NCBI RefSeq assembly: GCF_001281525.1
Contig: NZ_LGCI01000003.1
Coordinates: 1 to 40,123 of the forward strand
Source: Lysinibacillus macroides
GTDB lineage: Bacteria > Bacillota > Bacilli > Bacillales_A > Planococcaceae
Reading direction: 5' to 3'
Length of the DNA: 40,123 nucleotides
The notes under the pieces are model-generated. The model saw nothing but the letters and a program-made list of their open reading frames with translations. It was not told where the DNA came from and made no database searches. A program made the position numbers and the translations under genes. Positions 672 to 18,152 of this stretch are shown here, piece after piece (the stretch's first letter is position 1; every line of letters begins with the position of its first letter).

Positions 672-1439
672 TTATAACCAATCAGCTAACTTTTTTATTT
701 CTACGCCCCTGTCGATTAAAGCGGCTTTAATATCTTTGGCTAACGTCAAAGATCCAACTGTATCACCATGAATTAAAATACTTTCGCCCTCAACTGCTAT
801 CTCTTTTCCTGTAATCGTCTCTACTTTACCTTCTATTACCATCCGAACACAGCGATCAATAACAATATCTTTATTAAGGATTACAGCATTCGAATTTCTT
901 CTCGAAACTAATGTACCATCATCATTGTAAGCACGATCAGCAAAAATTAGCTTTGCTACTTTCATTCCTTTTTCTCTAGCAAGCCGCTCTAATTCACCTG
1001 CCTGTGTAACAATAATTAATGAGGGATCAAATTCGATTACCGCTTCAAGCATTGCGGTAGCACATTCTCTATCGACCATAGAAAGATCACCTAAACTACC
1101 ATGTGGACATATATGCTGTAATTTGCCCCCTGCCACTCTGACGAATGCCTCTAATGCGCCTAATTGATAAAGAACGTCTGTTTTTACTTCCCATGGTGTT
1201 ACACTAATATTTCTACGCCCAAAGCCTAGTAAATCCGGAAAGCCAGGATGTGCTCCTACACCTACGCCTTTTTTTATTGCTTCATAAACAGCCTTTGCCA
1301 TCGTTCTAGGATCTCCAGCGTGAAATCCACAAGCAACACTTGCTGAGCTAACAAGTTCAATAATACTAGCATCATCAGCAGCCTCGTATAGACCAAAGCC
1401 TTCACCTAAATCCGAAATAATATCAATTACACGCCCCAT
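672..1439 (-). CDS. pxpA: 5-oxoprolinase subunit A (LamB/YcsF family)
   Basis: PxpA is one of three subunits (PxpA, B, C) of the ATP-dependent bacterial 5-oxoprolinase, which opens 5-oxo-L-proline (pyroglutamate) to L-glutamate in the cytoplasm. The 255-residue product has the family's N-terminal DLGEGFG signature, then ACGFHAGDP, the GVGAHPGFPD block and, near the C-terminus, the ILIHGD motif. Length is normal. I place the start at 1439 because GGGGAG sits at a good distance upstream; an in-frame ATG at 1460 lies before that ribosome binding site. The gene is apart from pxpB and pxpC, separated from the glycerate kinase gene by a divergent LysR regulator that probably controls it. Its substrate could be a substituted oxoproline, given the odd neighbours. 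Confidence 0.9.
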   Translation of the reverse strand: MGRVIDIISDLGEGFGLYEAADDASIIELVSSASVACGFHAGDPRTMAKAVYEAIKKGVGVGAHPGFPDLLGFGRRNISVTPWEVKTDVLYQLGALEAFVRVAGGKLQHICPHGSLGDLSMVDRECATAMLEAVIEFDPSLIIVTQAGELERLAREKGMKVAKLIFADRAYNDDGTLVSRRNSNAVILNKDIVIDRCVRMVIEGKVETITGKEIAVEGESILIHGDTVGSLTLAKDIKAALIDRGVEIKKLADWL

Positions 1440-1573
1440 GTACGTCTCCCCTTTTTTCACAATTAAAGTCTTTTAAACGATTTACTTTTAATTTTAGGCA
1501 TTGAAAGAATATTTGTAAAATTAGATAATTCGAAATATAATATCAATAAAATTAATATATTGAGGTGTGGACG

Positions 1574-2449
1574 ATGGATTCAATTGGAATCGAAGCATTT
1601 CTCGCAGTGATTCGTCATGGCTCTCTAACAGATGCTGCCAACGCATTATTTATTTCACAATCAACATTAAGTCATCGTCTCGCAAAGCTGGAAAGTGATG
1701 TAGGGGTCAATTTAATAGAACGTGGACGCGGCATAAGATCATTATCGTTAACAGCAGATGGACAAGAATTTTTGCTATTAGCCAAAAGATGGGAAGGTCT
1801 ATTATTAGAAACAACACAAATACGCTCGCGAAAAAAATCAATTAGCCTTTCGATTGGTGCAGTAGATAGTATCAATTCTTATGTATTGCCACCTGTATAC
1901 CGAGCGCTTAGTGAATTAAGCAGGGATTTGGAAATAAGCATTCGCACACAACAATCTACGGAATTATATTTATTACTGGAACGCGGAGAAATTGATATCG
2001 CATTTGGTCTAATTGAACAACCCATGCCAGGAATGATTATTGATAAATTTTTAGCTGAACCTCTCGTTGTAATTCGTAGGGAAGAAACACCCCAAACTCA
2101 TGAAATGATTGATATTTTAGAATTAGATCCAGACAAAGAATTGTACATGAACTGGCATGCGTCATTTCACGCCTGGTACAATAAATATCGTTCAGCAACA
2201 AAGTATCCACCTATTCGTGTTGATACCTCTATATTGCTACATACATTTATGGAGACACCTGGCTATTGGGCAATTGTCCCTTTATCAATGGCGGAAAACT
2301 TTAAAGCAACCGGCAAATATGGATTATATCGATTAAAAAACCCACCTCCCGATCGTATATGCTATCAAATTCAATCTATATACCCGCGTCCAAGCGCTGT
2401 GGAAGGGTTAAAAATTTTAGATTCTGTTATTAAAAAAGTTTTATACTAG
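1574..2449 (+). CDS. LysR-family transcriptional regulator
   Basis: This 291-residue protein has an N-terminal winged helix-turn-helix of LysR type (about residues 1-60, with the SLTDAANALFISQSTLSHRLAKLE segment) and a C-terminal type 2 periplasmic-binding-like effector domain. A GTG at 1565 is possible, but GAGGTG at 1562-1567 is the ribosome binding site for the ATG at 1574, so I start there. It is transcribed divergently from pxpA across a 134-base AT-rich gap, the usual arrangement for a LysR regulator and its target. The likely regulon is pxpA and perhaps the downstream catabolic operon; the effector is unknown. A hairpin terminator follows the gene. Confidence 0.88.
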   Translation: MDSIGIEAFLAVIRHGSLTDAANALFISQSTLSHRLAKLESDVGVNLIERGRGIRSLSLTADGQEFLLLAKRWEGLLLETTQIRSRKKSISLSIGAVDSINSYVLPPVYRALSELSRDLEISIRTQQSTELYLLLERGEIDIAFGLIEQPMPGMIIDKFLAEPLVVIRREETPQTHEMIDILELDPDKELYMNWHASFHAWYNKYRSATKYPPIRVDTSILLHTFMETPGYWAIVPLSMAENFKATGKYGLYRLKNPPPDRICYQIQSIYPRPSAVEGLKILDSVIKKVLY

Positions 2450-2470
2450 AATATCTTTTAACAGATTTAA

Positions 2471-2508
2471 GGGGAAGTCAGAACGAAGTCTAACTTTCCC
2501 AATTTTTT
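2471..2508 (+). terminator. Terminator after the LysR gene
   Basis: GGGGAAGT(C)AGA pairs with TCTAACTTTCCC (2471-2500), followed by a T-run at 2503-2508. It points in the direction of the LysR gene. Confidence 0.75.
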
Positions 2509-3643
2509 ATACTTTATAAGCAAAAAAGGTTCTAACAACTTGTTCTGCACAATTAGTAAGTAAGTCAGATGCCTGCTCCACCGCCTTTTGTAAAGTGGTT
2601 GGACCATTTACAATGCTGTGAATACTAATAATACCGTATTGATACAGCACATCGATTCCTTCACCAATTGAGCCGGCAAGAACAATTGTAGGAACATTAT
2701 ATTTCTTCGCCTCCTGTGCAACTCCCATTGGCGTTTTCCCTTCTGCTGTTTGGCAATCAATCTGCCCTTCTCCCGTGATAACTAAATCCGCTCCTGCTAC
2801 AGCTTTTGTAAAGCCCGAATAATCAATAACAATATCGATGCCTGCCCTTATTTCAGCTGGAAAAAACGCCTGAAATGCCCCTCCTAAACCACCAGCAGCT
2901 CCTGCTCCTTCACTGTGGTGAATACGAATGCCAGTATGCTTTTCAATTAAATCAGCTAAATGCTGTAAATTATTATCCAAAAGCTCCACCATCTCAGGTG
3001 TTGCCCCTTTTTGTGGACCAAAAATAGCTGAAGCACCATTTGAACCAATAAACGGATTTTTTACATCTGAGGCAATGATAAATGTTGCTTCGGCAATTCT
3101 TTTATCAAATTTACGATTATCAATCATGGTAATTTTATTTAATGCTCCACCTCCAAAGCCAATTTCATGACCGTTACAATCTAAAAACTGTAAGCCTAAT
3201 GCCTGCAACATACCAACACCTGCATCATTTGTCGCACTGCCGCCTAAGCCAATAATAAAATGACGATATCCTTGATCTAATGCTTGTTTTATTAGCTGAC
3301 CCATCCCATAGGTTGTCGTCTTTAGAGGATCACGTTTATCTTCTGGAATAAGATATAGGCCTGATGCACTTGCTGTTTCAATAATGCATGTTTGAACATC
3401 TCCTAAAACACCATAGGCTGCTGTGATATCACTACCAAGCGGATTTTTCACTTGTGCGTGATAGATTACTCCGTTAGTGGCTGCTACAAGTGCATCCATT
3501 GTACCTTCGCCGCCATCAGCCATTGGTACAATAACGGTTGCAGCACTCGGTAAATATTTCTTTACCCCTTTTTCTATCGCGATTGCTGCGTCGTAGGCTG
3601 ATATACTTCCTTTAAAGGAATCGGGTGCAATCACTATTTTCAT
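2507..3643 (-). CDS. Glycerate kinase (GlxK/GarK family)
   Basis: The enzyme phosphorylates D-glycerate with ATP to 2-phosphoglycerate (some family members yield 3-phosphoglycerate). The 379-residue sequence opens with the hallmark MKIVIAPDSFKGS and contains PMADGGEGTMDAL, the GLGGSATNDAGVGMLQALG block and a C-terminal ITGEGQID motif. I start at 3643, since AAAGGTG precedes it at normal spacing; the GTG at 3655 overlaps that site. It is the last gene of the minus-strand catabolic cluster, 58 bases after pxpC. With the hydroxypyruvate-reductase-like gene in the same cluster, it suggests that hydroxypyruvate or glyoxylate-derived carbon is routed to glycolysis through glycerate. Confidence 0.9.
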   Translation of the reverse strand: MKIVIAPDSFKGSISAYDAAIAIEKGVKKYLPSAATVIVPMADGGEGTMDALVAATNGVIYHAQVKNPLGSDITAAYGVLGDVQTCIIETASASGLYLIPEDKRDPLKTTTYGMGQLIKQALDQGYRHFIIGLGGSATNDAGVGMLQALGLQFLDCNGHEIGFGGGALNKITMIDNRKFDKRIAEATFIIASDVKNPFIGSNGASAIFGPQKGATPEMVELLDNNLQHLADLIEKHTGIRIHHSEGAGAAGGLGGAFQAFFPAEIRAGIDIVIDYSGFTKAVAGADLVITGEGQIDCQTAEGKTPMGVAQEAKKYNVPTIVLAGSIGEGIDVLYQYGIISIHSIVNGPTTLQKAVEQASDLLTNCAEQVVRTFFAYKV

Positions 3644-3701
3644 ATGGAACAACACCTTTTACTCAATTTTCGTTAAAGATTTGGCTTTATATTTATCCTA
3701 A

Positions 3702-4658
3702 TTATTTGCTTGCCATTTTGTTATTTACCTTTATTAAAGATAAAAGTCTCTCTCTTTTTTTATAAAGCTCTTGTGCTTCCTCAATCTCTATTTTTTCAAA
3801 ATGGATTACATCTCCTGGCTTCTTTTGCGCTAAATATGGTAAATCCACATCAATGACAACACCGATTTTTGTATACCCACCTGTCATTTGACAATCTGCC
3901 ATTAATACAATCGGTTGCCCATTTCCTGGAATTTGAATTGACCCCATTGTAATATAATCCGAAATAATATCTGGTCCAACTTTATGTGAAATTGCTGCTC
4001 CTTCTAAACGAAAGCCCATTCGATCAGATTCATTTAATACCTTGTAGCGGCTTGTACAAAATTTTTCAAGCTCTGACGCCTTAAACTCATCTGCCTGTGG
4101 TCCTAAAATGAATCTCATCGGACGATCCTCTCCAAAATTTGGCCTATATTCCGTTGGAAGTATTCTTCCAATTGATGTATACATAGAATTCCCAATTGAT
4201 ATAATATCCTTGGACTGTAGGGCTTTCCCATCCATGCCACCAAAGCCAGCTCTTAAGGAAGTAGATTTACTACCAATAACTATGGGAACATCAATACCAC
4301 CTGCAATTGCAATATATGCACGACAACCATAGCCAGTTGCAAAGCCAAACGTTAATTCGTCTCCTTTCTCGACCTTAATGGAAGTCCAAAGCGGTACATG
4401 TTTTCCATTTAACTTCGCACCTATATCTGCACCCGTAATTGCAATAATACCACCTTCTAAAAACTTTAGATGTGGCCCCATCAAAGTTACTTCGATTGCT
4501 GCTTCCTCATCGTCATTGCCGACTAAAATATTGGCAATTCTCAATGAAAATTTATCCATTGCACCACTGGCTGAAATACCATATTTTTGATAATTAGCTC
4601 GTCCGAGATCTTGAATTGTTGACATTAATCCTGGTTTAATGATTTCAATGAATTCCAT
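3702..4658 (-). CDS. pxpC: 5-oxoprolinase subunit C (biotin-dependent carboxyltransferase family, KipA-like)
   Basis: The protein (318 residues) begins MEFIEIIKPGLMSTIQDLGR, the family's typical start, and carries GISASGAMD, ITGADIGAKLNG and the C-terminal ILMADCQMTGGYTKIG segment. PxpC acts with PxpB and PxpA to hydrolyse 5-oxoproline with ATP. The family was earlier annotated as KipA or urea-amidolyase-like carboxyltransferase. Its start lies inside the end of pxpB (34-base overlap), so the two are probably translationally coupled. There is no biotin domain in the protein, as expected for Pxp. Confidence 0.9.
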   Translation of the reverse strand: MEFIEIIKPGLMSTIQDLGRANYQKYGISASGAMDKFSLRIANILVGNDDEEAAIEVTLMGPHLKFLEGGIIAITGADIGAKLNGKHVPLWTSIKVEKGDELTFGFATGYGCRAYIAIAGGIDVPIVIGSKSTSLRAGFGGMDGKALQSKDIISIGNSMYTSIGRILPTEYRPNFGEDRPMRFILGPQADEFKASELEKFCTSRYKVLNESDRMGFRLEGAAISHKVGPDIISDYITMGSIQIPGNGQPIVLMADCQMTGGYTKIGVVIDVDLPYLAQKKPGDVIHFEKIEIEEAQELYKKRERLLSLIKVNNKMASK

Positions 4659-5416
4659 TTTTTAATCCACTCTCTCTGTTTATTGTCATTCCATTGTTCA
4701 GCTTCTTCTGCACTAATTGCCTCAAACTTAATATAGTTTCCAGCAAGCAATGTACTTGGGGGATTTTGATGTGGATCAAATGTTTCCATAGGGGTTTGAC
4801 CGATTACATGCCAGCCGCTCGGTGATGCTAACGGATGGAGCACAGTAAGTCGATTAGCAATAACAATTGAGCCCTTTTCTACTTTTATTCTTGGACTACT
4901 TCTTCTTTTTAGCGCTAATCGTTCATCTAAATCCCCTAAATATGGATAGCTGCCAATTACTCCTAACATATAAATAAAATATGGTTTAGACGTATGTAGT
5001 CGAATAACTTCATCCATATCTAATCCTGTGCTTTCAGCAACATATTCGATATCAGGACCATATTCCCCTCCATACACAACTGGAATATGAATAATATTCT
5101 GTGGCTTATGTTCCTTATACTGTTCAAAAACGAGGCGACTTTTTATTATTTCAAGTTCTTCTGTTAATGCTTTATACGCTATGCTTAAAGGATTATAACG
5201 AATCGCAACTGTACAAAATGTAGGAATAATTTGTGTGACACCTGAAATCTTTGCTACCTCAACTTCTTGCGCAAAGCTTAATACTTTTTGATTTATACTG
5301 ATTCCCATTTCTTTCTCAAATTGAGCCACGATTACTTGATCTCCTAATGGCAAAAACTTAGGATATTGTGCAATTATATTTTTTTCAGAGTGCTCTGCTG
5401 TAGTTTCCTTAAACAT
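4625..5416 (-). CDS. pxpB: 5-oxoprolinase subunit B (KipI-like)
   Basis: This 263-residue protein belongs to the PxpB/KipI family (carboxyltransferase domain, subdomains C and D). Recognisable parts are the FLPLGDQVIVAQFE opening, IPVVYGGEYGPD, and the C-terminal LTVLHPLASPSGWHVIGQTP block. I place the start at 5416 because GGGAGGG lies five bases upstream; the GTG at 5434 lies before that site. It overlaps pxpC. KipI of B. subtilis also inhibits a sporulation kinase, but the context here (pxpA, pxpC, transporter, aminotransferase) speaks for catabolism. Confidence 0.9.
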   Translation of the reverse strand: MFKETTAEHSEKNIIAQYPKFLPLGDQVIVAQFEKEMGISINQKVLSFAQEVEVAKISGVTQIIPTFCTVAIRYNPLSIAYKALTEELEIIKSRLVFEQYKEHKPQNIIHIPVVYGGEYGPDIEYVAESTGLDMDEVIRLHTSKPYFIYMLGVIGSYPYLGDLDERLALKRRSSPRIKVEKGSIVIANRLTVLHPLASPSGWHVIGQTPMETFDPHQNPPSTLLAGNYIKFEAISAEEAEQWNDNKQREWIKKWNSLKSLNQD

Positions 5417-5452
5417 CTTAACCCTCCCAGCCACTTTCTTACGAAGATGAAA

Positions 5453-5520
5453 ATATTGGAATCAGCATGAAATAGCGATGAGTATATTTTTACATCGGCA
5501 TCCTATGCTTCATCCAATAT
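5453..5520. repeat. Long segmented inverted repeat between the MFS gene and pxpB
   Basis: Three nested complementary segments face one another with nearly symmetric gaps: ATATTGGA/TCCAATAT (5453-5460, 5513-5520), AGCAT/ATGCT (5464-5468, 5505-5509) and CGATG/CATCG (5476-5480, 5493-5497), with a loop of about 12 bases. The minus-strand transcript would form a 68-base imperfect hairpin between the transporter and pxpB. No clear U-run follows, so it looks more like a processing, stability or attenuation element than a strong terminator. Confidence 0.55.
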
Positions 5521-5577
5521 CACATTACTACTTTCTAAAATCATCATTTATTGTTCCATTCTTCTTACTTGGATCTC

Positions 5578-6957
5578 TTAATCTTCACCAAAGGCTTCTC
5601 TACCAATTTCCTCCATTGATTTGAAACGTGTCTCTACCCCTAAAATTGCTACAACTAGGGCTACAACACCTAATACAGAGCCAATTGTAACAAATACTGC
5701 TACTTGCCCAAATTGCGTTAACACCCAAGCAATGCCATATGGCGTAAAGATTGTCACAACTCGTCCAACTGCATTACAAAAACCTGAGCCTCTTAAACGC
5801 ACCTCTGTTGGCCAAATTTCTGGAATATACACCGCAGAAGATAAACAAACGTATATATACAGCACTGTAATTAAAATAAAGCCTATAATCATAATGAAAA
5901 TTTCAGATGATTGTAGAGCATAAATGTATCCAAGAATAGCAATTGTCACTAACAATCCAACCGCTAACCATTTACGTGGAAACTTATCAATAATTTTGGT
6001 TGCCACAAACACACCAAAAGGGGCTCCAAATAAAATAATGGTTGTCATTAATAATGACTTAGTCACTGTAATTCCTGATTGAACAAATAATGTAGGAATC
6101 CAAGTCATAATACTATAAATAGCTGTATTCATCCCAATTAACACAAAGCTTCCTAAAATTGTTCTTCTTAATAAATTACCTTTAAATAAACTTGAAAAAG
6201 GTAATGATTTTACTTCTTGCCCTCCAACAATATCGGCTTCCATTACAGGAGGTAATTTAGCTCCTGTTTCTTTTTCAATATCCTGCTCTACCTTCGATAA
6301 AATAGCCTCGGCTTTATCGAGCTCTCCACGTGATGCAAACCAGCGAGGTGATTCAGGTAAGCCGTGACGAGCAACCCATAAAATTAATGCTGCTACCCCA
6401 GCAATCATAAACATAGCTCTCCATCCTAGCTCTGACCCTAAAGCAGGCATTACCAATAAACCTGTTAACGTTGCGATAGGTGGGGCAAAGTTTGCTAATA
6501 ATGATAATTTTGCTGACCACTTCCCACGAACTCTACTTGGAATAAACTCTGGGAACGTTGCAAATCCTACCACAAGCTCTGCTCCTAGCCCTATTCCAAT
6601 AATCCCACGTAAAATAATTAACGTAACCATATCTGTGGCAAAAGCTGCTGCAATTGAAGCTATTCCAAAAATTAACAGATTAATTTGGTAGGCGAATTTT
6701 CTTCCTTTATGGTCACCAAGCAGTCCTGCTAAAATTGAACCAATAAATAATCCTGCCATTGTTGCGGATGTAAAAGCAGCATTCAAGTAGTTATTGGACC
6801 ATCCATTTTCAATTAATTGAGCTAAAATGGCTCCTCCCATATAGTTGTCAAAACCATCAATTAAGATCCCAATCCCGATTAACCAGAATACACTTTGATG
6901 CCATTTTGAAATGGGTAAGCGATCCATTCTTGCGCCAATATCATTTTGTTTTGCCAC
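5578..6957 (-). CDS. MFS transporter (sugar/aromatic-acid porter type)
   Basis: The 459-residue protein has about 12 hydrophobic segments and classic MFS signatures: DGFDNYMGGAIL in helix 1, the loop 2-3 motif GDHKGRKFAYQ, RGIIGIGLGAE in helix 4, and the FPRKWLAVG loop between the halves. It is most like the sugar-porter/AAHS branch that takes up organic and aromatic acids. The start is a GTG at 6957 behind AAGGAGG. It sits inside the catabolic cluster, so it probably imports the substrate of the Pxp/aminotransferase/aldolase set. The exact substrate cannot be read from the sequence. Confidence 0.85.
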   Translation of the reverse strand: MAKQNDIGARMDRLPISKWHQSVFWLIGIGILIDGFDNYMGGAILAQLIENGWSNNYLNAAFTSATMAGLFIGSILAGLLGDHKGRKFAYQINLLIFGIASIAAAFATDMVTLIILRGIIGIGLGAELVVGFATFPEFIPSRVRGKWSAKLSLLANFAPPIATLTGLLVMPALGSELGWRAMFMIAGVAALILWVARHGLPESPRWFASRGELDKAEAILSKVEQDIEKETGAKLPPVMEADIVGGQEVKSLPFSSLFKGNLLRRTILGSFVLIGMNTAIYSIMTWIPTLFVQSGITVTKSLLMTTIILFGAPFGVFVATKIIDKFPRKWLAVGLLVTIAILGYIYALQSSEIFIMIIGFILITVLYIYVCLSSAVYIPEIWPTEVRLRGSGFCNAVGRVVTIFTPYGIAWVLTQFGQVAVFVTIGSVLGVVALVVAILGVETRFKSMEEIGREAFGED

Positions 6958-7120
6958 AGCATATTCCCCTCCTTAAGTAATATTCATTACAGCTATTCAT
7001 ATTTATGTAAACTTAAATATGAAGACTTTTTTGTATATAAGTGTAATTTGGATGGTTAGCTAGCTATAAATTACAAATATTTTAATATAATTATAACCAT
7101 AATTTTAGTTAGCTTTTTAG

Positions 7121-8074
7121 TTATACAATATTTCTTGCTGCTCCTGCCACAAATGCTTTTACATTGTCTACTGCCATATCCAATAATCGTCCACGGGCTT
7201 CTTTCGTTGCCCATGAAATATGGGGAGTTATCATACAATTTTTAGCGGATAATAACGGATTTGATGCGGACGGCGGCTCAACATCCAAAACATCCAAGCC
7301 AGCTCCTGCAATTACGCCATTATTTAAAGCATCAGCAAGATCTTGGTTATTTATTAACCTCCCCCTGGACGTATTAATAATAATCGCTGAAGCTTTCATT
7401 ATCGCCAGATTATCTCGATTGATTATTTCTTCTGTTTCTGGCGTTAATGGACAATGTAGGCTAATAACGTCTGCTTCTTTTAACAAATCTGTTAAATGAT
7501 CTGCCCATTGGAAATTAGGTAAATCAACCTCACGCTGTTGACGATTATACGCGATAATCGACATGCCTAATGCTGAAGCTACTTGTGCTGTTTGATAACC
7601 AATACGTCCAAAACCAACGATACCAAACTTTTTGCCAGCTAACTCAATTAATGGATAGTTCCAGAAACACCAATCCTGATGATTTGTCCATTCTCCCGCT
7701 CTTACTGCATCACTATGTCTTTGTACACGTTGGCAGTGCTCTAATAATAAAGCAAAGACCATTTGTGCTACAGAATGAGTGCCATAGGCCGGAATATTTG
7801 TTACAACGACATTCTGTTCTTTAGCTGCTTCAACATCTACTACATCATATCCAGTGGCGAGTACGCCAATATATTTTAATTTGGGTAATTGCGCTAAAAT
7901 TTCTTTTGGAAGTGGTGTTTTATTCGTTAAAATAATTTCAGCTTCTACAGCACGTTCCACAATTAAATTATTTGGCGTGCGATTATAGACAGTCACTTCA
8001 CCGACTTCTGATAATTTCCTCCAGCTTAAATCGCCTGGATTCAGCGTATAGCCATCTAAAATAACGATATTCAT
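7121..8074 (-). CDS. D-2-hydroxyacid dehydrogenase, hydroxypyruvate/glyoxylate reductase-like
   Basis: This is a 317-residue NAD(P)-dependent D-isomer-specific 2-hydroxyacid dehydrogenase. It shows the Rossmann GFGRIG motif near residue 150, the catalytic Arg in NTSRGRL, the Glu in DVLDVEPP and the His in TPHISWATKEAR. The ITPHISWATKEAR segment is what I associate with glycerate dehydrogenase/hydroxypyruvate reductase. The start at 8074 has AGGA six bases upstream; an in-frame ATG at 8098 adds eight residues before the usual first strand. With glycerate kinase in the same cluster it would reduce hydroxypyruvate to glycerate, or glyoxylate to glycolate. Other 2-oxoacids are possible. Confidence 0.85.
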   Translation of the reverse strand: MNIVILDGYTLNPGDLSWRKLSEVGEVTVYNRTPNNLIVERAVEAEIILTNKTPLPKEILAQLPKLKYIGVLATGYDVVDVEAAKEQNVVVTNIPAYGTHSVAQMVFALLLEHCQRVQRHSDAVRAGEWTNHQDWCFWNYPLIELAGKKFGIVGFGRIGYQTAQVASALGMSIIAYNRQQREVDLPNFQWADHLTDLLKEADVISLHCPLTPETEEIINRDNLAIMKASAIIINTSRGRLINNQDLADALNNGVIAGAGLDVLDVEPPSASNPLLSAKNCMITPHISWATKEARGRLLDMAVDNVKAFVAGAARNIV

Positions 8075-8114
8075 TGCTTGTCCTACCCTTCCTTTCATAT
8101 ATGATAATCACTGC

Positions 8115-9281
8115 TTATGAAAATGCCTTTGCCATTCTTTTCATCGCTTCCTTCAACATCTCATCTGAATTGGCACAAGATATTCTCACATTTTTCTTAT
8201 ATGCTGGTCCGAATGCCTCTCCTGGCGTTACAGCTACACCCACTTCCTCCAATAAATATTCTGCTAGTTGATAGGAATCAAAGCCTGCAAAGTCTACTTC
8301 TGGAAATACATAAAAAGCTCCCTCAGGTTTTTCACACGTTACACCAGGAATTTTATTTAAGCTTTCCACAACAAAATCTAATCTTTCCTCATAACGATTC
8401 TTCATTTTTACTACTTCTTCTTCACTATTTTTTAATGCAGCAATGCCAGCAATTTGTACGAAGGATGTTGTACACGTCATCATATGTTGCTGTGCCTTTA
8501 GCGCTGCACTACATAATTCCTCAGGTAATGCTAGGTAGCCTAGCCGCCAGCCTGTCATAGCATAGCCCTTTGAAAAGCTTTGAACAGTAATCGTTCTCTT
8601 TAATAGCTCAGGATCGCTCGCTACACTTATAAATGGATGGTCCTCATATGTTAGGCGATCATACACTTCATCAGAGATAACGATTAAATTATGCTCCTCG
8701 GCCACTTTGCGAAGCTCAGTGATTTCTTCCTGCTTTAATACTCTTCCTGTCGGGTTATTTGGTGTATTAATAATGATCGCCTTCGTTTTTGCTGTACAAG
8801 CTTCAGCAATTAATTGACCTTTTAATGTAAAGTTATCTTTTTGATCGAGGTTAACATAAACCGTTTTTCCTCCCACCATTGTAATTAATGGCTCATAGCT
8901 TACCCAAGCTGGATTAACAATCATCACCTCATCATCTGGATTAATCATTGACATAAGTGCGATATAAAGGGCTAATTTTCCTCCAGGCGTTACGATAATT
9001 TGTGAGGCATGATAATTACAGTTATCCACATTACGCAGTTTGAGAGCAATTTCTTCACGTAACTCAGGAATGCCCGGACTATTTACATAATGTGTTTTTC
9101 CTTTCTTCATTGCTTCCTCAGCAATATCAATAATATTGTGCGGCGTATCAAAATCTGGCTCTCCTCCGCCTAAATTAATAACGTCTTTCCCTTGTTCAAT
9201 TAAAGATCTCGCTTTATCATTTATTGCGACAGTTTTAGATTCTGATAAATGATTAAACACCTCAGCATTTAATAACGTCAT
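8115..9281 (-). CDS. PLP-dependent class I aminotransferase
   Basis: The 388-residue protein is a fold-type I aminotransferase. It has GGGEPDFDTP near the N-terminus, NTPNNPTGRVL, SDEVYDRLTYE, the PLP lysine in SFSKGYAMTGWRLGY and the substrate-binding Arg in VRISCANS near the C-terminus. It resembles bacterial aspartate-type aminotransferases (subgroup I-gamma). Its ATG overlaps the stop of the upstream RraA-like gene by four bases, with GGAGG inside that gene, so the two are translationally coupled. In this context it would deaminate the amino acid released by 5-oxoprolinase (glutamate or a 4-substituted glutamate), giving the 2-oxoacid for the coupled aldolase. Confidence 0.88.
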   Translation of the reverse strand: MTLLNAEVFNHLSESKTVAINDKARSLIEQGKDVINLGGGEPDFDTPHNIIDIAEEAMKKGKTHYVNSPGIPELREEIALKLRNVDNCNYHASQIIVTPGGKLALYIALMSMINPDDEVMIVNPAWVSYEPLITMVGGKTVYVNLDQKDNFTLKGQLIAEACTAKTKAIIINTPNNPTGRVLKQEEITELRKVAEEHNLIVISDEVYDRLTYEDHPFISVASDPELLKRTITVQSFSKGYAMTGWRLGYLALPEELCSAALKAQQHMMTCTTSFVQIAGIAALKNSEEEVVKMKNRYEERLDFVVESLNKIPGVTCEKPEGAFYVFPEVDFAGFDSYQLAEYLLEEVGVAVTPGEAFGPAYKKNVRISCANSDEMLKEAMKRMAKAFS

Positions 9282-9958
9282 ACATTCGTACCTCCTAATA
9301 CACCTTTTTTCATTAATGTTTCATCAATCCAGTCATAATTAAGAGTGCCTGCTTCAATTTGTTCTAGTTGTTTTTTTTCCATCGCTTCGATTCGTTGAGC
9401 CTCCTGTAATACTTCGTTATTTGCTCGCTCATAAGGAATAACAGTAATTCCGTTATCATCACCAATAATTAAATCTCCCGGCTTTACGATAGCTCCTGCA
9501 CAAATAATAGGTACATTGATTTGACCGGGGCCTTCACGGAATGGTCCAGCTGGTGTTGCTGCCTTTGCATATACTGGAAAGCCTAACTCCTTAATTTCCT
9601 CTGGATCACGAATCGCACCGTCAACTACAAATCCAGCAAGTCCTTTTTTCTGCCCAATGGAGCTCATAATTTCTCCTAACAATGCACGATTTTCAAAACC
9701 ACCCCCATCAATGACGATAATATCTCCAGGCTCCGCCATATGTATTGCCTTATGAATCATTAAATTATCGCCAGCCGATGTCTTTACTGTAAAAGCGGTG
9801 CCCTTTAAGCGAATGCCAGGTTTATTAAAATGGCCAATTGAGCTCATACAATTGAAACGTCCTAAAGCATCTCCGATAATCGTTGTACTAATCTCGCCAA
9901 ATGCATCCACTAATTCTTTAGAAACTCTTTTCTCTACAGATTCCATACGATAAATCAT
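9278..9958 (-). CDS. RraA-like protein / 4-hydroxy-4-methyl-2-oxoglutarate aldolase family
   Basis: This 226-residue protein belongs to the RraA-like family (also mislabelled demethylmenaquinone methyltransferase). It contains the acidic-glycine loop VIDGGGFENRALLGEI and, at about residues 120-127, GFVVDGAIRDPEEI, whose Arg and Asp are the pyruvate- and metal-binding residues in HMG/CHA aldolases. Family members split 4-hydroxy-4-methyl-2-oxoglutarate into two pyruvates and can decarboxylate oxaloacetate; true RraA inhibits RNase E. Enzyme activity is more likely here, since the gene is first in an operon and coupled to an aminotransferase. AAAGGGG lies eight bases before the ATG. Confidence 0.82.
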   Translation of the reverse strand: MIYRMESVEKRVSKELVDAFGEISTTIIGDALGRFNCMSSIGHFNKPGIRLKGTAFTVKTSAGDNLMIHKAIHMAEPGDIIVIDGGGFENRALLGEIMSSIGQKKGLAGFVVDGAIRDPEEIKELGFPVYAKAATPAGPFREGPGQINVPIICAGAIVKPGDLIIGDDNGITVIPYERANNEVLQEAQRIEAMEKKQLEQIEAGTLNYDWIDETLMKKGVLGGTNV

Positions 9959-10009
9959 TTTTAAAACCCCTTTGATTTCTGTCTATTCAGAAATTTCTTA
10001 TTTTTCATT

Positions 10010-10038
10010 ATGATAATAGCTCTTTTATTAATTGTAAA
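10010..10038 (-). promoter_or_regulatory. Candidate promoter of the RraA-like/aminotransferase operon
   Basis: On the minus strand, TTTACA (10033-10038) and TATCAT (10010-10015) are separated by 17 bases. The TATCAT box is about 50 bases upstream of the RraA-like ATG. Both boxes are imperfect. Confidence 0.4.
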
Positions 10039-10054
10039 ATTGAATATATTGAGT

Positions 10055-10081
10055 TTTAAAATCGAAAAATTAGATTTTAAA
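10055..10081. promoter_or_regulatory. Inverted repeat, possible operator
   Basis: A perfect 9-bp inverted repeat, TTTAAAATC and GATTTTAAA with a 9-base gap, lies just upstream of the candidate -35 box of the catabolic operon. A related GTCTTTTAAA occurs at about 10101 and again in the pxpA-LysR gap near 1469, so this may be a site for the LysR protein. AT-rich chance matches are possible. Confidence 0.35.
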
Positions 10082-10125
10082 GCCTTATAGATAGAATAAG
10101 GTCTTTTAAAATTGAAATAAAAAAA

Positions 10126-10180
10126 TACTAACACCAGTAGCACAAACCTTAGCTTTGGTTTGCACTACTCTGTGTTAGTA
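10126..10180 (-). terminator. Terminator after the DASS transporter gene
   Basis: A long hairpin has outer arms TACTAACAC/GTGTTAGTA and an inner ACAAACC/GGTTTGC-type stem. On the minus strand it is followed by a run of seven T (10125 down to 10119). It lies four bases after the transporter stop. Confidence 0.8.
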
Positions 10181-10183
10181 TGT

Positions 10184-12037
10184 TTAAAATGGGAAGAAGA
10201 ATGGAATGGCTACCATCATAACAATAAGCATCACAATTTGTAGTGGGATACCTATTCTTACAAAGTCCATAAATTTATAGCCCCCCGCTGTCATAACTAA
10301 TGCATTTGTAGGGGAAGCAATTGGTGTAGCAAATGCCATACTGGCTGCGACTGCTACAGCAATCATAAAGGTGGTAGGGCTAACATCCATTGCAATAGCA
10401 GCACTCATTGCAATGGGGGCAAATAATACAGCAGTCGCCGTATTACTAATAAATTGACCAAAAACGGCTGTTAATAGATAAACCCCAATTAACACGCCAT
10501 AAGGGCCATAATCACCCAATGCATTGATAATGCCATCCGATAGAAGGGTCATGCCCCCTGTTTTTTCTAATGCCGTTGCCATTGGTAGCATGGCTGCAAC
10601 TAATACAATACTTTCAAAGTTCATATTCCCATAGGCATCTTCCATATTGCGCAAGCAGCCTGTTAAAATCATAAGCACCGCGCCAATCATAACCGAAATA
10701 ACGGTTGGGAAAATTTCAAATGCCATTAATATAATCATCAATAGCATAATAATCCCCGCAATACCAGCTTTACCCGTAGCGGCTGCGACACTGGCATGTT
10801 CCTTCGGCTGACCCACAACCACAACATCTTGCGTTTCCCTTGCCAGTAATAAAATTTCATCCCAAGCACCTTGTACTAATATCGCATCTCCAAATTTCAA
10901 CTTATGAGAAACCATATCTTGAAGCTTATAACCGCCTCTACGGTTAATCCCAATAATATTTAAGTTATATTTTTCGCGGAATCCAAGTGAGCTAACTGTT
11001 TCGTTAATAAAGCTTGAATTGGGTGTAAGCAACACCTCGGCAATACCTAGATGTTTGGATACTAATTCATCTGCCTCACCTTTCACCAAGCCCTGCACCT
11101 CAAGATGATAATCCTCGGCAAAGTGGTAAATATCCTCTTCCTCACCTTGTACATATAACTCATCTTTAGCCTGGATTACACTTGTTGGACCTGCCATTTC
11201 CTGATAGGTCATTGGCAGTAAATTGATACCCTCCTGTGATTTTCGATGAATTTTCATCATGCAAAGCGTATACTTAGCTGGCAGCTTTAATTCTGCCAAT
11301 GATGTTGCAATAATGGGTGAATCCTCTGGTACAGAAATTTTAAAGAGCCGATTGTTTAAATCATATTGCTTCATGATTTTCTTAGGTGAAAGCTTGTAGC
11401 CTTCATTTGTTTGTGTACGACTTTGATCTTTTGGTAATAAAATATTACGTACAAGCACTAAGTAGCTAATTCCTGCAATCATCCCAACAATGCCAATAGG
11501 TGTTATTTCAAAAAAGCCTAGCTTACTATAGCCTCGATCCACCAATAATTGATTGACAATTAAATTAGTGGGTGATGCAATCAATGTCATCAGACCTGAT
11601 AAACTTGCGACATAAGACAATGGCAATAAAAATTGAGAAGGGCTGACTTTCATGCTGATCGCGATACTAACAACAATCGGCATCATTAATGCTACCGTAC
11701 CTGTATTACTCATAAAAGCCCCAACTGTTCCTACAATAATGAGCAGTAGTACAAATAATTTCAGCTCACTATTGCCTGACCATTTCAGCAATAATTGCCC
11801 TGCCATCCCTGCAAGACCGGTGCGTAAAATGCCTGCACCCACCACAAATAGCCCTGCAATCATTAACACGACTGAGTTGGAAAAACCGGCTAATGCCTCA
11901 GCAGGTGTTAGAATATCTGTAATAACAAATGCCAAAAGTGACACAATCGCTACAAGGTCTGCGCGTATTTTATTGGTCACAAATGCAAAAATTGTTGCTC
12001 CTAAAATAAGAAATGTTAATGTAAGCTGCACATCCAT
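10184..12037 (-). CDS. DASS/SLC13-type transporter with central RCK (TrkA-C) domains
   Basis: The 617-residue membrane protein has two blocks of hydrophobic segments (about residues 1-200 and 420-617) around a soluble part with two TrkA-C-like domains (about 220-400). Both halves carry the family's SNTGTVALMMPI/SNTATAVLFAPIA and IASPTN/IASPTNALV signatures, the clamshell loops of divalent anion:sodium symporters. Substrates in the family include sulfate and C4-dicarboxylates; RCK-containing members are often sulfate or cation-regulated carriers. I choose the start at 12037 (GAAAGGA just upstream, first helix immediately after). An in-frame ATG at 12076 has no ribosome binding site. It has its own terminator and is probably monocistronic. 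Confidence 0.82.
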   Translation of the reverse strand: MDVQLTLTFLILGATIFAFVTNKIRADLVAIVSLLAFVITDILTPAEALAGFSNSVVLMIAGLFVVGAGILRTGLAGMAGQLLLKWSGNSELKLFVLLLIIVGTVGAFMSNTGTVALMMPIVVSIAISMKVSPSQFLLPLSYVASLSGLMTLIASPTNLIVNQLLVDRGYSKLGFFEITPIGIVGMIAGISYLVLVRNILLPKDQSRTQTNEGYKLSPKKIMKQYDLNNRLFKISVPEDSPIIATSLAELKLPAKYTLCMMKIHRKSQEGINLLPMTYQEMAGPTSVIQAKDELYVQGEEEDIYHFAEDYHLEVQGLVKGEADELVSKHLGIAEVLLTPNSSFINETVSSLGFREKYNLNIIGINRRGGYKLQDMVSHKLKFGDAILVQGAWDEILLLARETQDVVVVGQPKEHASVAAATGKAGIAGIIMLLMIILMAFEIFPTVISVMIGAVLMILTGCLRNMEDAYGNMNFESIVLVAAMLPMATALEKTGGMTLLSDGIINALGDYGPYGVLIGVYLLTAVFGQFISNTATAVLFAPIAMSAAIAMDVSPTTFMIAVAVAASMAFATPIASPTNALVMTAGGYKFMDFVRIGIPLQIVMLIVMMVAIPFFFPF

Positions 12038-12138
12038 GAATTCCTTTCTAACATTAAAAACATTTTTATAATCCATATCTATTTTTATTATAGCTTAGGC
12101 AAGATGATATATGATAAAGTTCACCGTCTTTTCAAAAT

Positions 12139-12181: not shown

Positions 12182-12796
12182 TTATTTCTGATAAAGATGA
12201 TGTTCTTTAATATAGTCGTAACATGCATCAGGCAGAAGGTATCTTGGTTCTCCCCCCATTGCCAATTCCTCTCGAATATAGGTAGAGCTAATTTCCATCG
12301 CCAACCCCTTGTCAATAAGATGGAACCGTCCATCATCATGATTTCTTAAAATAGGAGAACGGCTAATGGTGGATAGCATATCAATGCCATGTCTTGCCAT
12401 CACAATAAATTTATTTTCCGCTATGAGCGCATCACCTTTTTTCCATAACCCTGCGCCAATATCTCCTAATAAATCTGCACCCATAATAAAATGGACTTCA
12501 TCCTCTAGGTGCTTTTCCCTAAAATATTTCATCGTATCATAGGTGTAGATATTCCAGCCTTCTTGCTCCATTTCATAGGAATCTGCACTAAAACGCTGAT
12601 CTTTCGCAATTGCTAGCTGAACCATATTCCAACGATGCAGATCCTCTGTTTTGATTGTTTTATCCTTACGTTTACTCGAGCACGGTAAAAAAATAACCTG
12701 ATCTAGCTTGCAACGATGTGCAACTGTACTAGCTGTCCATAGATGAACATTGGTGATCGGATCAAAGGATGAACCATAAATACCTATTCTCGCCAT
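12182..12796 (-). CDS. Nicotinate-nucleotide adenylyltransferase-like protein
   Basis: This 204-residue protein is a nucleotidyltransferase of the NadD type (nicotinate mononucleotide + ATP to deamido-NAD). GSSFDP occurs at residues 8-13 and an ISSTYIR motif near the C-terminus, both hallmarks of the family. The active-site HxGH reads T-N-V-H (15-18) here, so the first His is Thr and the conserved Gly is Val, unusual for a housekeeping NadD. It may be a paralogue with altered specificity. A pncA-pncB salvage operon lies 3 kb away, which supports an NAD-related role. GGAG precedes the ATG at seven bases. Confidence 0.72.
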   Translation of the reverse strand: MARIGIYGSSFDPITNVHLWTASTVAHRCKLDQVIFLPCSSKRKDKTIKTEDLHRWNMVQLAIAKDQRFSADSYEMEQEGWNIYTYDTMKYFREKHLEDEVHFIMGADLLGDIGAGLWKKGDALIAENKFIVMARHGIDMLSTISRSPILRNHDDGRFHLIDKGLAMEISSTYIREELAMGGEPRYLLPDACYDYIKEHHLYQK

Positions 12797-13833
12797 TAGT
12801 ATTCTCCGCTACTAAAAATATAAAAAGTGTACATTTTTAAGGTTTTCCCGCTTGCTAGAACATTCCACAGGCAGTACGTTCAATTTAGCCAATCAATTCC
12901 CTACATAGTTTAGAGAAAGAGGCTAGCTACATGTTAAAAGTGCAAAAAATATTGGTGTGCAACCACTGCTAATTATTCATAATACTCCCCTCGATAGTGA
13001 TATACACTGATCAGTCACTATCGAATTTGCATATGCTAATCGGCTATCTGTTAACCAAGTATTAGTTTTTGAACCCTTAAAATGTTTTTATTTATATTCG
13101 CTCTTTGTTTAGTAGCAGATTTTTCACCTCTCTTTTTTAGCTGTTCGTATTCTTATGAAAAAGAGCGTTATCCACTTGCTAATATTCCTCTGTAAGCTGT
13201 TCATATCCTTTCTCTATCCTAATCTGTGGAATGTTTGAACAGGTATATTCATCATTTCTGTAAATACTTTTGGTTTGTATTAGGTCATAGCGACATTTCA
13301 CTACATAATAATTACATGTTACTCATACAGCGTTTACTATACCGTAATTGAGAAGGCCAAAATATTTTACAGCCTTTATAGAAATCAGTAAGTCGAAAAT
13401 ACTAATATTTCCATTGAATTTTATGTGACATTCAAGGATTATACATTGCTAACTTACATCTATTCACATAAAATATTGAATTAATATCATACATAAAGTA
13501 TCTAAATTTTCAGATTAATAGTATAGAATTAGATATATAAAGGACATTCCACTTCATCAAAAGTAATATTTTTACAACATTAAAACATTCATCCACTAGA
13601 ATTACATAATGCTCTCTAACTAATGGTGACTCTCCCCCAAGATATAAGCAGTATTCACACTAAACCATTTATATATTTTCTATACAATAATAAAATGAAA
13701 ATCCTCTCACTTTGAGAAGTTAATTGTGAGATTAGCTTGTTTCACCCTATTCACTATTAGTTACTTGCCCACCCTTTAATTACCTATACATTTTTACGCT
13801 TTATCACTTGATTTAAGAAAGGACGTACTATTT
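12797..13833. other. Gene-free kilobase between nadD-like and chemoreceptor genes
   Basis: I see no convincing coding frame in over 1 kb. It holds an isolated dyad (12991-13024, listed separately), pyrimidine-rich and AT-rich tracts, and the 5' region of the chemoreceptor gene. No recognisable sigma-D promoter (TAAA-N15-GCCGATAT) was found before the chemoreceptor. A deleted or decayed gene is possible but I could not identify remnants. Confidence 0.5.
12991..13024. promoter_or_regulatory. Nested dyad resembling a TetR-family operator
   Basis: TCGATAGTGA (12991-13000) and TCACTATCGA (13015-13024) are perfect inverted arms. Between and overlapping them sits the palindrome ACTGATCAGT (13006-13015). 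Such compact dyads are typical of TetR-type repressor sites, but no regulator or regulated gene lies next to it. Confidence 0.35.
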
Positions 13834-15801
13834 ATGAAAATAACGGCAAAAGTATCAATCGTATCGGCTATCATCTTAGTTTTAATCATTACAATCCTGA
13901 CATTCAATTCAACCATAAATATACAAAAGGTTATCAGCCAATTAGAATCCTCTGAAACAAAAAATATCTCTATTGGTTTAAACAATGAAATTAAAAACCA
14001 ATTTGATTTACTAAGCATTGGAAATACACCTATCATAAATAACCAAGAAATTTTGAAAGCCTTTGCTAATCGTGATCGAGAAACATTAGCGAACTTAACT
14101 TTACCCTTAATGAAGCAATTAGAAGAGCAAGGAGTTAAACAATTTCAGTTTCATTTACCTAATGCCACCTCATTTTTCCGCGTTCATAGCCCTGAGGAAT
14201 TCGGAGATGATTTATCCTCCTTCCGTCATACGGTTGTCAAAGCGAACGATGAGCAAACAATCGTTGAAGGGCTTGAAGGCGGCGTTGCGGGTGTAGGATT
14301 CCGTTATGTTGTTCCTCTTTTTTACAACGGTTCACCTATTGGTACGGTGGAGCTTGGGATGGGCATTACAGAAGGCTTGCTAGAAAAATTTCAGGAAAAT
14401 TACAGTGGAAATTGGACCCTATATGCCATAGAAAATGAAAGCTCCCAATTTATGCTTAGCACTGGGAAAGAAAAAGAATCCTCTATTCCTAAAGAAAATA
14501 TTAATAAATTATTGAATGGCGAAGAAATAGAGTATTTGGACAACACAACAAAAATATTAGCATTTCCGTTAACTGATTTTTCGGGTAAAGTGAAATGGTA
14601 TTTAGAAAGCGAAATCGATTATGCAGCTATGATTACACAGAAAAATTCATATTTATACACGATCTTGATGGCAGGGATTATTATTAGTGTTATTGGTCTT
14701 GCTATTGTCTTTTTATTCCTTCGTCAAATTTTAAAGCCACTCTCTATTATCTCAAGTGATGTGGAGCAAATTGCTGATGGGAATCTTACAATCGAACCAA
14801 AAACATATACCACTAAGGATGAAATCGGTATTCTATCTTCCAGCTTTCATAAAATGACAGCTAATTTAAAGTCACTTATTTTAGGTATTCAACAAAAAGC
14901 ACAGGAGTTATCTCAAAACGCTACCTCTATCAGTCACAATGTTTTAGAATCTAAGGATGAAACGAATGAAATCGTACGCTCAATAGCATCGATTAATGAT
15001 AATACACAACAAGTAAAAGTGGCCTGTGAAGAAACAGCTAAGGCAGTAACCGAAATCTCGCAGGGAATTGTTCGTGTAGCTGATAATACAGCCAATATTG
15101 CAGAGGCAACGAATACAATGAATGACATGACTACACAAGGAAGTAGCTCTGTACAATCCGCCATTGGACAAATGGAGGCCATTCAGCAACACTCCATCCA
15201 ATTTGCCAAAATTATTGGCGAATTAAAGGTCGATTCAGATGAAATTGGGCAGATTATGCAATTAATTAGAGGTATTGCAGAGCAAACAAATTTACTGGCC
15301 TTAAATGCAGCCATTGAAGCTGCTCGAGCAGGAGAAGCTGGCAAAGGCTTTGCTGTAGTTGCTGAGGAAATTCGAAAATTAGCCGACCAAACTTCAAACT
15401 CTGCCTCTAAGGTACGCACGTTAATCGATGAAATTCAAGCAAAAACTGAAGTTGCTGTTCAATCAATGGAATCTAGTAGTACGGGAATACAGGAAGGAAC
15501 TCAGCTTATCTATAAAGTTGGTACATTATTCACGACTATTCAGCATGCTGTACAAAACCTCTCAACAGATATTGATGATTTATCAGCGTTATCTGAGCAG
15601 ATGTCTGCTGGAAGTGAGGAGGTTACAGCTTCTATACAGGAAATTGCCTCTATGTCTGTGCATTCTGCGGACTCATCTAGTCATGTGACAGTAGCTTCAG
15701 ATGCCCAGCTAGCCACAATTGCTGAAATAGCCTTGGCTACTAAAGCATTAACCAATATGTCTCAGGAGCTTGAGAATAACGTAAATATTTTTAAGGTGTA
15801 A
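13834..15801 (+). CDS. Methyl-accepting chemotaxis protein, dCache-type sensor
   Basis: A 655-residue transmembrane chemoreceptor. It has an N-terminal helix (about 7-26), an extracellular ligand domain (about 30-265) with [13 protein letters not shown] and [23 protein letters not shown], typical of a double-Cache (dCache_3-like) sensor, a second helix (about 275-298), a HAMP domain (about 300-352) and a cytoplasmic signalling domain. The last holds the conserved hairpin tip [20 protein letters not shown] and [13 protein letters not shown]. The ligand is unknown. AAAGGA lies ten bases before the ATG. The gene stands alone on the plus strand between minus-strand NAD genes. Confidence 0.92.
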
Positions 15802-15905
15802 TAAAGTGAATATTTATTCAGAAGTTTTTTGGTCTTTGCTGAATGGTACCTGTACTAAATAAATTTTCATCTACCAACTGAAATAAAAACCTCACTGTTA
15901 AACAG

Positions 15906-15933
15906 TCCCCCTTCCAAATACATGTAAGGGGGA
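15906..15933. terminator. Probable terminator between the convergent chemoreceptor and pncB genes
   Basis: TCCCCCTT (15906-15913) pairs with AAGGGGGA (15926-15933). A second small dyad (CTGTTTAACAG on the minus strand) and a T-rich stretch follow in the pncB direction. The T-run on the plus side is weak, so direction is uncertain. Confidence 0.5.
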
Positions 15934-16040
15934 TTATTGCACTCTTGTAGGGTCCATAGACTGCTCATACACTTGCTGCATGTTCCGCAAATTCTTGTGA
16001 TCGCTACATATGATTACTGGTCACTGCCTCCCATTGTCTT

Positions 16041-17495: not shown

Positions 17496-17516
17496 GGCTA
17501 TCCCTCCATTTGTCTA

Positions 17517-18068
17517 TCAAATAACTGTTGCACCTAATGTATGCTCAAAATGACCTAAAGCCCATTCATGTCCGACTTGGTTAAAGGATGCAACCGCATT
17601 TTTATGAATAACAATTTTAAATCCTTTATTATAAGCATCTACTGCTGTATGAAGAACACAAATATCTGTACAAACACCCACTAAATGCAGCTCAGTGATG
17701 CCCCTTTCACGCAATTTTAGCTCTAAGTCTGTTCCTGCAAAAGCAGAATATCGTGTTTTATCTATATAGTAAACATGATCCTGCTCTCGATTTTCTTCAT
17801 ATAGTGACTGTAGAGCCCCATACAGTTCTCTACCTTTTGTCTCCCGAATATTATGCGGTGGAAATAGCTTTGTTTCTGGATGGTAAATATCTCCTTGTTC
17901 GTGAACATCTATCGCAAATACCGTAAAGTCCCCATTCATAATAAATTCCTTTGTTAACGCTACATTTGCTTGCTCTAGTAGCTGTCCCGGTTCTCCACAG
18001 GTTAAAGCTCCATCCGATGCAACAAAATCCACTGTATAATCAATATTAATCAATGCACGCTTTGTCAT
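17517..18068 (-). CDS. pncA: Nicotinamidase (isochorismatase-like cysteine hydrolase)
   Basis: PncA hydrolyses nicotinamide to nicotinate and ammonia. In this 183-residue protein the catalytic triad can be read as Asp10 (ALINID), Lys104 (YIDKTRY) and Cys137 (GVCTDICVL). Metal-site residues Asp54 and His56 (AIDVHEQGD) and His72 are present. Length is normal for the family. It sits between the NrtR-like gene and pncB, and the gap before it contains a copy of the operator-like element also found before the NrtR gene, so it may have its own regulated promoter. Confidence 0.92.
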   Translation of the reverse strand: MTKRALINIDYTVDFVASDGALTCGEPGQLLEQANVALTKEFIMNGDFTVFAIDVHEQGDIYHPETKLFPPHNIRETKGRELYGALQSLYEENREQDHVYYIDKTRYSAFAGTDLELKLRERGITELHLVGVCTDICVLHTAVDAYNKGFKIVIHKNAVASFNQVGHEWALGHFEHTLGATVI

Positions 18069-18095
18069 TATTTCATCACTCCATTTTATTAATTA

Positions 18096-18118
18096 GTAAT
18101 GCAAATATTACAAATTAC
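18096..18118 (+). promoter_or_regulatory. Operator-like element, copy 2 (before pncA)
   Basis: GTAAT-N6-ATTAC (18096-18111) followed by AAATTAC. The same 23-base layout occurs in the other orientation at 18984-19006, upstream of the NrtR-like gene, with 18 of 23 positions identical. It lies about 28 bases before the pncA start. A binding site for the NrtR-like protein is the simplest reading. Confidence 0.6.
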
Positions 18119-18152
18119 AAAATTTAAAATAATCAGGAAAGACAGCTCTTTC

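Follow-up and report, generated by a model that had tools for sequence, protein, structure and literature searches.

The first 40,123 nucleotides of contig NZ_LGCI01000003.1 of Lysinibacillus macroides (the window) carry, near their left end, a block of nine genes at 672-9958 in which the three subunits of the 5-oxoprolinase PxpABC adjoin an aminotransferase (AT), an RraA-like protein, a hydroxyacid dehydrogenase (Hpr) and a glycerate kinase (GlxK). The original prediction had described a minus-strand series running from rraA to glxK, with pxpA and a lysR gene at its end; all of these genes are real, intact and uninterrupted, and lie on the strands it gave.

9278-9958, minus: rraA-like gene, predicted class II 2-oxoacid aldolase, 226 amino acids
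8115-9281, minus: AT, class I/II pyridoxal phosphate aminotransferase, 388 amino acids (PF00155, 254 bits)
7121-8098, minus: hpr, D-2-hydroxyacid dehydrogenase, predicted hydroxypyruvate/2-oxoacid reductase, 325 amino acids (PF02826 and PF00389)
5578-6957, minus: MFS transporter, predicted importer, 459 amino acids (PF00083/PF07690)
4625-5434, minus: pxpB (TIGR00370, 159.3 bits, cut-off 145.55; PF02682)
3702-4658, minus: pxpC (TIGR00724, 319.7 bits, cut-off 230.2)
2507-3655, minus: glxK, glycerate kinase (TIGR00045, 490.6 bits, cut-off 168.45)
1565-2449, plus: lysR, predicted regulator of both transcription units (PF00126 and PF03466)
672-1460, minus, divergent from lysR: pxpA (NF003814, 313.3 bits, cut-off 226; PF03746)

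The 4-base overlap claimed between rraA and AT is found at 9278-9281, and the two genes also abut (locus L034) in G087, the other Lysinibacillus genome with the block (the window's own genome is G000). The overlap of pxpB with pxpC is 34 bases, and lysR and glxK converge. The span first proposed, 2507-9958, excludes pxpA and lysR and has to be widened, as the unit that is conserved and inserted whole comprises nine genes at 672-9958. Indeed, G087 has all nine in the same order, with protein identities of 85-97% (96% for LysR), and all nine are under purifying selection, with dN/dS between the two genomes of 0.03-0.19. An RraA match at E 1e-20 occurs in 79 of 150 genomes of the order, and the only close one besides that of G000 is in G087 (93% identity; the next is 55%).

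The block is one inserted nine-gene unit. A DASS-type transporter gene (dass, 10184-12076 in the window), which lies upstream of the block, occurs in all 32 genus genomes. In G087 the block sits between dass and an rRNA operon, and no block gene lies beside dass in any of the nine other genus relatives fetched: the rRNA region is next to dass in six (confirmed by Rfam in L149, the only one of the six scanned), the gene beyond the rRNA follows directly in one, and the contig ends in two. The left flank of the block was read in G087, since the window's contig ends 671 bases beyond pxpA. Three non-coding features bear on how the block is expressed.

10121-10185, minus: inverted repeats and a T run after dass, unlisted by the consensus terminator scan
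9959-10075, minus: region upstream of rraA, near-identical in G000 and G087, with an operator-like element at 10035-10052
1488-1564, plus: lysR-pxpA intergenic region, near-identical in G000 and G087, with a matching element at 1547-1564 on the minus strand

Because the inverted repeats and T run follow dass, rraA probably opens a new unit, with dass in a separate one; the sites found by scanning for promoter and terminator consensus are no commoner than in shuffled sequences. Upstream of rraA the near-identity extends over ∼110 bases, and in the lysR-pxpA gap over ∼65, despite a synonymous divergence of ∼0.4-0.7 in the genes of the block. An 18-base element, with one extra base, is common to both regions; 14 of 1000 dinucleotide-shuffled pairs score at least as high, and four other intergenic stretches score below this pair. 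The shared element suggests a single LysR regulon covering both promoters.

All three PxpABC subunits are present, each above the cut-off of its model (NF003814, TIGR00370 and TIGR00724 for PxpA, PxpB and PxpC), and PxpC does not reach the equivalog model NF045499 (263.9 bits, cut-off 500). Among the 32 genus genomes, PF02682 is matched once in 30 and not at all in two, and the single pxpB of G000 and of G087 is that of the block. Seven other pxpABC loci fetched from the genus (28-43% identity) are without rraA, AT, hpr, glxK and MFS genes. In three of them, for which neighbours were listed, a pyroglutamyl-peptidase I gene stands beside pxp in two and an Nramp-family gene in one; a pyroglutamyl peptidase search with a genus query gave no match in G000 or G087, and family annotation finds no NRAMP-type transporter gene among those of the block. 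In the phylum, PxpC is matched at E 1e-50 in 101 of 398 genomes, none above 53% identity apart from the window's own, and we fetched 40 loci, mostly the best-scoring, from the 100 non-own genomes. These loci hold pxpB (40), pxpA (39), an NRAMP-type transporter (19), pyroglutamyl peptidase (2) and an hpr match of 29% identity (1), and rraA, AT, glxK and mfs each occur in 0 of the 40. Four of the stretches are shorter than 7 kb and several others are cut off early at one flank, which makes the absence of genes there less telling. The gene set is found at no other examined pxp locus except that of G087; the Pxp of the block differs from the ordinary kind by its genomic context, and the combination of genes is not due to chance.

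Few RraA-family genes have, to our knowledge, a tested role. The RraA-like protein of the block is predicted to be a metal-dependent class II 2-oxoacid aldolase: its predicted fold resembles 3noj, the HMG/CHA aldolase of Pseudomonas putida F1 (27-30% identity), and R117, D118, N65, H69, R34, G138 and R189 are identical to active-site positions of 3noj, with E96 standing for D102. The catalytic residues around 3noj R123/D124 are retained. E36, D102, D124 and E199 of 3noj also have active-site roles. In the HMG/CHA aldolase, R40, N71, H75, R123, G144 and R195 were mutated (PMC5065237). Assignment as the RNase E regulator RraA was rejected, as NF006875 (88.4 bits, cut-off 136) and TIGR02998 (49.3 bits, cut-off 241.25) are not reached and the best fold match is an aldolase. 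RraA-family genes are described in all kingdoms, including where aromatic degradation and RNase E are absent (PMC5065237).

The remaining enzymes are assigned more broadly. Among solved structures, aspartate and aromatic aminotransferases come closest to the aminotransferase, which is under the cut-off of every NCBIfam model shown (n=25). Hpr matches 5tx7 best in the PDB (364 bits); next come chains of phosphoglycerate dehydrogenase, glycerate dehydrogenase and glyoxylate reductase, and the scores of Hpr are below the named equivalog cut-offs (GhrA, 74.2 against 403 bits; GhrB, 190.8 against 492; PRK13243, 229 against 455). The MFS protein scores 186.5 bits with TIGR00895, short of the cut-off of 418.55, and shares 50% identity with a ydjE-annotated gene in the record of an E. 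coli plasmid. The glxK gene is the sole PF02595 match in G000; G087 has a second glycerate kinase.

From this gene content we infer, with a probability of roughly 0.4, that the substrate degraded by the block is a hydroxylated 5-oxoproline (a 4-hydroxyglutamate in its lactam form), whose pieces pass to glycolysis. The MFS protein would import the hydroxylated lactam and PxpABC would open it with ATP to a hydroxylated glutamate, which the aminotransferase would convert to a 4-hydroxy-2-oxoacid; AT adjoins the 2-oxoacid aldolase, and therefore an amino acid would become the aldolase's substrate. The RraA-like aldolase would then cleave between C3 and C4, giving two 2-oxoacids, and a cut at this position requires the 4-hydroxyl. 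Hpr would reduce the three-carbon 2-oxoacid, most likely hydroxypyruvate, to D-glycerate, GlxK would phosphorylate this to 2-phosphoglycerate, and LysR would control both promoters.

The original prediction had allowed either glyoxylate or hydroxypyruvate as the second 2-oxoacid, and we favour hydroxypyruvate. It fits GlxK better because no glyoxylate carboligase scores above the cut-off in G000 or G087 (their carboligase-model matches of 338 and 341 bits are presumably acetolactate synthase) and hydroxypyruvate needs Hpr alone; a route from glyoxylate through tartronate semialdehyde to glycerate is disfavoured on the same ground. Two substrates could each account for every gene. 3,4-Dihydroxy-5-oxoproline, via 3,4-dihydroxy-2-oxoglutarate, would yield hydroxypyruvate and glyoxylate, and the glyoxylate could go to malate synthase, which is present. 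Alternatively, 4-hydroxy-4-hydroxymethyl-5-oxoproline, via 4-hydroxy-4-hydroxymethyl-2-oxoglutarate, would yield pyruvate and hydroxypyruvate. Opening of a 2-oxo-oxazolidine carboxylate by PxpABC to serine was also considered and rejected: it would suit AT, Hpr and GlxK and leave RraA idle. Plant sources are reported for both hydroxylated glutamates, cress seeds and rhubarb leaves for 3,4-dihydroxyglutamate and several plants for 4-hydroxyglutamate (PMC6350885), and 4-hydroxyglutamate gives 4-hydroxy-5-oxoproline in urine sample processing (PMC13117884). It is conceivable, if doubtful, that a PxpABC branch and a hydroxypyruvate-releasing RraA were recruited to form a mobile, self-contained pathway that degrades polyhydroxylated pyroglutamates, for example plant 3,4-dihydroxy-5-oxoproline.

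The original prediction had proposed surveying neighbourhoods for co-occurrence of pxpBC with rraA and glxK, and the outcome is mixed. Our RraA-anchored survey comprised 80 loci in named genomes (41-56% identity); near RraA there were hpr in 43, glxK in nine and AT in five, and the annotated neighbours include D-glycerate dehydrogenase and, in one cluster, glycerate kinase. The closest RraA relatives after G087 (54-56%; L043 6233-10657 and L035 3084-9844) lie beside SDR-like, cytosine-deaminase-like amidohydrolase and amidase genes, in L035 also with an allantoin-type permease, and each neighbourhood is, as read from these gene families, a putative ring-opening cluster. On a Bradyrhizobium plasmid (NZ_CP022220.1, L135 2407-9891), a HyuA/HyuB oxoprolinase, an MFS gene, RraA, a cupin and an alpha/beta hydrolase form one run, so that RraA adjoins a second family of ATPases that open lactams. 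Ring-opening enzymes occur in these two other RraA contexts as well, which counts for the proposed route. An MFS-anchored survey gave one non-own match in 398 phylum genomes at E 1e-120 (48% identity); this single case (L230 5344-14027) has a DmpG-type aldolase just under the cut-off, DUF6282, a hydroxyacid dehydrogenase and a LysR-like match. A different arrangement recurs in L133, L134 and L136, in which RraA accompanies an Ldh-family oxidoreductase, an iron-containing alcohol dehydrogenase and an aldehyde dehydrogenase; the transporters are of TRAP or ABC type, and two of these loci also have D-glycerate dehydrogenase.

Linkage of RraA to PxpC in further lineages was read indirectly, from equal sizes of the records' longest contigs. 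By this measure a PxpC match is apparently on the same contig for five of the 30 closest RraA hits, compared to one of the next 90 (Fisher p 0.0037), or 5/24 versus 0/49 when only contigs of at least 3 kb are counted, the sole match among the next 90 rows being a contig of 2,189 bases. The five contigs have 99,668, 11,748, 166,207, 209,019 and 3,460 bases; the first two are also in the MFS list, and in two pairs the number of contigs agrees as well (12/12 and 3/3). We had drawn from the 41-56% RraA loci the view that pxp linkage is peculiar to Lysinibacillus, and revised it after this contig match. In a PxpC tree, made by a quick method and leaving out two rows of fused proteins, one half holds seven of the eight rows linked to RraA, and the other holds the 209,019-base row; the linked rows are not a clean clade, requiring three changes, and 3 of 500 shuffles are as low. 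On the contigs of Peribacillus saganii and Bacillus sp. JJ1532, both halves of the tree are apparently represented, each by one PxpC. Several Bacilli apparently carry two different pxpC on one contig (P0250/P0305, P0251/P0324, P0253/P0321 and P0303/P0346, again from equal contig sizes).

Several observations weigh against degradation of a hydroxylated 5-oxoproline. Pxp genes are beside RraA relatives in none of the 80 loci; with hpr in 43 of them, RraA and Hpr form a common module, and pxp is outside it in the wider family. The 200 class genomes and 398 phylum genomes hold no further sequenced example, the best other RraA being 49% identical in the former and the best other PxpC 53% in the latter. 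Outside Lysinibacillus, equal contig sizes suggest the linkage; one of these contigs is long (209,019 bases), with its PxpC in the other half of the tree, and another, of 3,460 bases, is small enough for a chance match, its contig number and source agreeing. The same contig test for the MFS gene gives 2/30 versus 2/90, which is not significant. As evidence, the element common to both promoters carries modest weight, the DNA being AT-rich. In RraA, 3noj E199 aligns with Met193 (the adjacent Glu194 is invariant in a 24-row alignment), T145 aligns with a Pro, and the cut-offs of the LigK/PcmE models are not reached (TIGR02798, 136.2 against 304.5 bits; PRK09262, 152.9 against 179). Use of a hydroxypyruvate enolate by RraA is an assumption, and a member of the RraA family has been reported to act as a dehydratase/decarboxylase instead of an aldolase (PMC8563752). 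Finally, and this is the main doubt, PxpABC may also, or only, recycle ordinary 5-oxoproline, because the block's pxpB is the sole copy in the genome. The predicted import, opening, transamination and cleavage of a hydroxylated pyroglutamate are partly supported, by the conserved unit, its contrast with ordinary pxp loci (0/40 with rraA or glxK), the aldolase-like residues and the 5/30 versus 1/90 contig match, and opposed by the 0/80 count.

If PxpABC were an ordinary 5-oxoprolinase replacing the native one, with RraA, AT, Hpr, GlxK and the MFS protein handling an unrelated hydroxyacid or serine-like compound, the block would hold two functions side by side. This is rather unlikely. In its favour, G000 and G087 each have one pxpB, that of the block, and no match to the pyroglutamyl peptidase of two genus pxp loci, and RraA with Hpr but without pxp is the common arrangement. 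However, pxpBC lies inside the gene series and not at its side, in several lineages relatives of RraA and PxpC apparently lie on one contig, a PxpC of this type is apparently accompanied by another on its contig in Peribacillus saganii and Bacillus sp. JJ1532, and the block is without the NRAMP-type transporter present in 19 of 40 loci elsewhere.

The simplest hydroxylated lactam, plain 4-hydroxy-5-oxoproline, is a less probable substrate. Here PxpABC and AT would give 4-hydroxy-2-oxoglutarate, RraA would yield pyruvate and glyoxylate, and Hpr would reduce the latter to glycolate. The compound arises from 4-hydroxyglutamate (PMC13117884), malate synthase is present, and the window also encodes a pyrroline-5-carboxylate (P5C) dehydrogenase, a DapA-family aldolase and a second hydroxyacid dehydrogenase (19121-22681); however, glycerate kinase would be left without a substrate, as no glyoxylate carboligase scores over the cut-off. 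That RraA is instead a decarboxylase of oxaloacetate or another 2-oxoacid, or a dehydratase, serving AT in a pathway that ends in serine or hydroxypyruvate from glutamate nitrogen is improbable: HMG/CHA aldolases also decarboxylate oxaloacetate (PMC5065237) and an RraA-family dehydratase/decarboxylase is known (PMC8563752), but the pairing of RraA with Hpr, and sometimes GlxK, across different clusters fits cleavage of a carbon chain better.

Degradation of a hydroxylated 5-oxoproline would be a new route assembled from known enzyme families. In keeping with the original prediction, which knew of no pathway with this exact set, no described pathway combines RraA or a 5-oxoprolinase with glycerate kinase, or has the whole gene set, in the literature searched, with most subscription journals outside it. 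The mammalian degradation of hydroxyproline, by ALDH4A1, an aminotransferase, HOGA1 (DapA fold) and GRHPR, has a common logic of 4-hydroxyglutamate, transamination, aldol cleavage and 2-oxoacid reduction, whereas the block would enter by ATP-dependent lactam opening, use an aldolase of the RraA fold and add glycerate kinase. The HOGA step of the mammalian route is described in PMC13117884. PxpA, PxpB and PxpC are homologous to those of the operons of B. subtilis, C. glutamicum (pxpTABC) and C. difficile (pxpAGBC) (PMC13274462), and PxpC shares 36-53% identity with its matches in the phylum sample; in contrast to these operons, the block is without the NRAMP-type transporter PxpT/PxpG and a GntR gene, and has MFS, LysR, AT, RraA, Hpr and GlxK. 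Compared to the HMG/CHA aldolase of protocatechuate and gallate degradation (PMC5065237), the RraA-like protein is 27-30% identical and lies without aromatic pathway genes. Two Bacilli RraA clusters resemble the block in RraA and D-glycerate dehydrogenase (glycerate kinase in one), but have no pxp and no AT, and hold three oxidoreductases and TRAP or sugar-type ABC transporters.

PxpABC has been described as a one-lactam enzyme, for repair and nutrient use (PMC13274462). A small, bounded and selected gene set ties it here to RraA, and the reductase and kinase point to the product, leaving a short list of substrates. If such a mobile pathway for polyhydroxylated pyroglutamates is real, it would be, as far as the literature searched shows, the first catabolic route to open a lactam and end in glycerate, and would give this RraA subfamily its first physiological role. 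Given this gene set, 5-oxoproline recycling should not be annotated for pxp genes without checking their neighbours.

Other groups of genes lie to the right of dass. At 12182-18953 a nicotinate phosphoribosyltransferase, an isochorismatase-family protein, a 266-amino-acid NUDIX/NrtR-like protein (recognised by eye, with no family match at the thresholds used) and what we take to be a NadD-like protein likely form an NAD salvage group. The region 19121-25862, kept in G087 and partly in G156, encodes the P5C dehydrogenase (NF002852, over the cut-off), the DapA-family aldolase, the second D-2-hydroxyacid dehydrogenase (within 19121-22681; 34% identical to Hpr), an amino acid ABC transporter and a GntR regulator; an in-frame TAA stands at 24786-24788 in the reading frame of the ABC solute-binding protein. 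The three enzymes at 19121-22681 are of the types used in mammalian hydroxyproline breakdown. A histidine degradation set follows at 26143-30624 (hutI, urocanase and aromatic amino acid lyase family genes), and hutU and hutI matches are also near dass in eight of the nine relatives fetched. The sole Rfam match in the window is outside the block, a thiamine pyrophosphate (TPP) riboswitch at 36165-36279 upstream of thiC (34242-36020).

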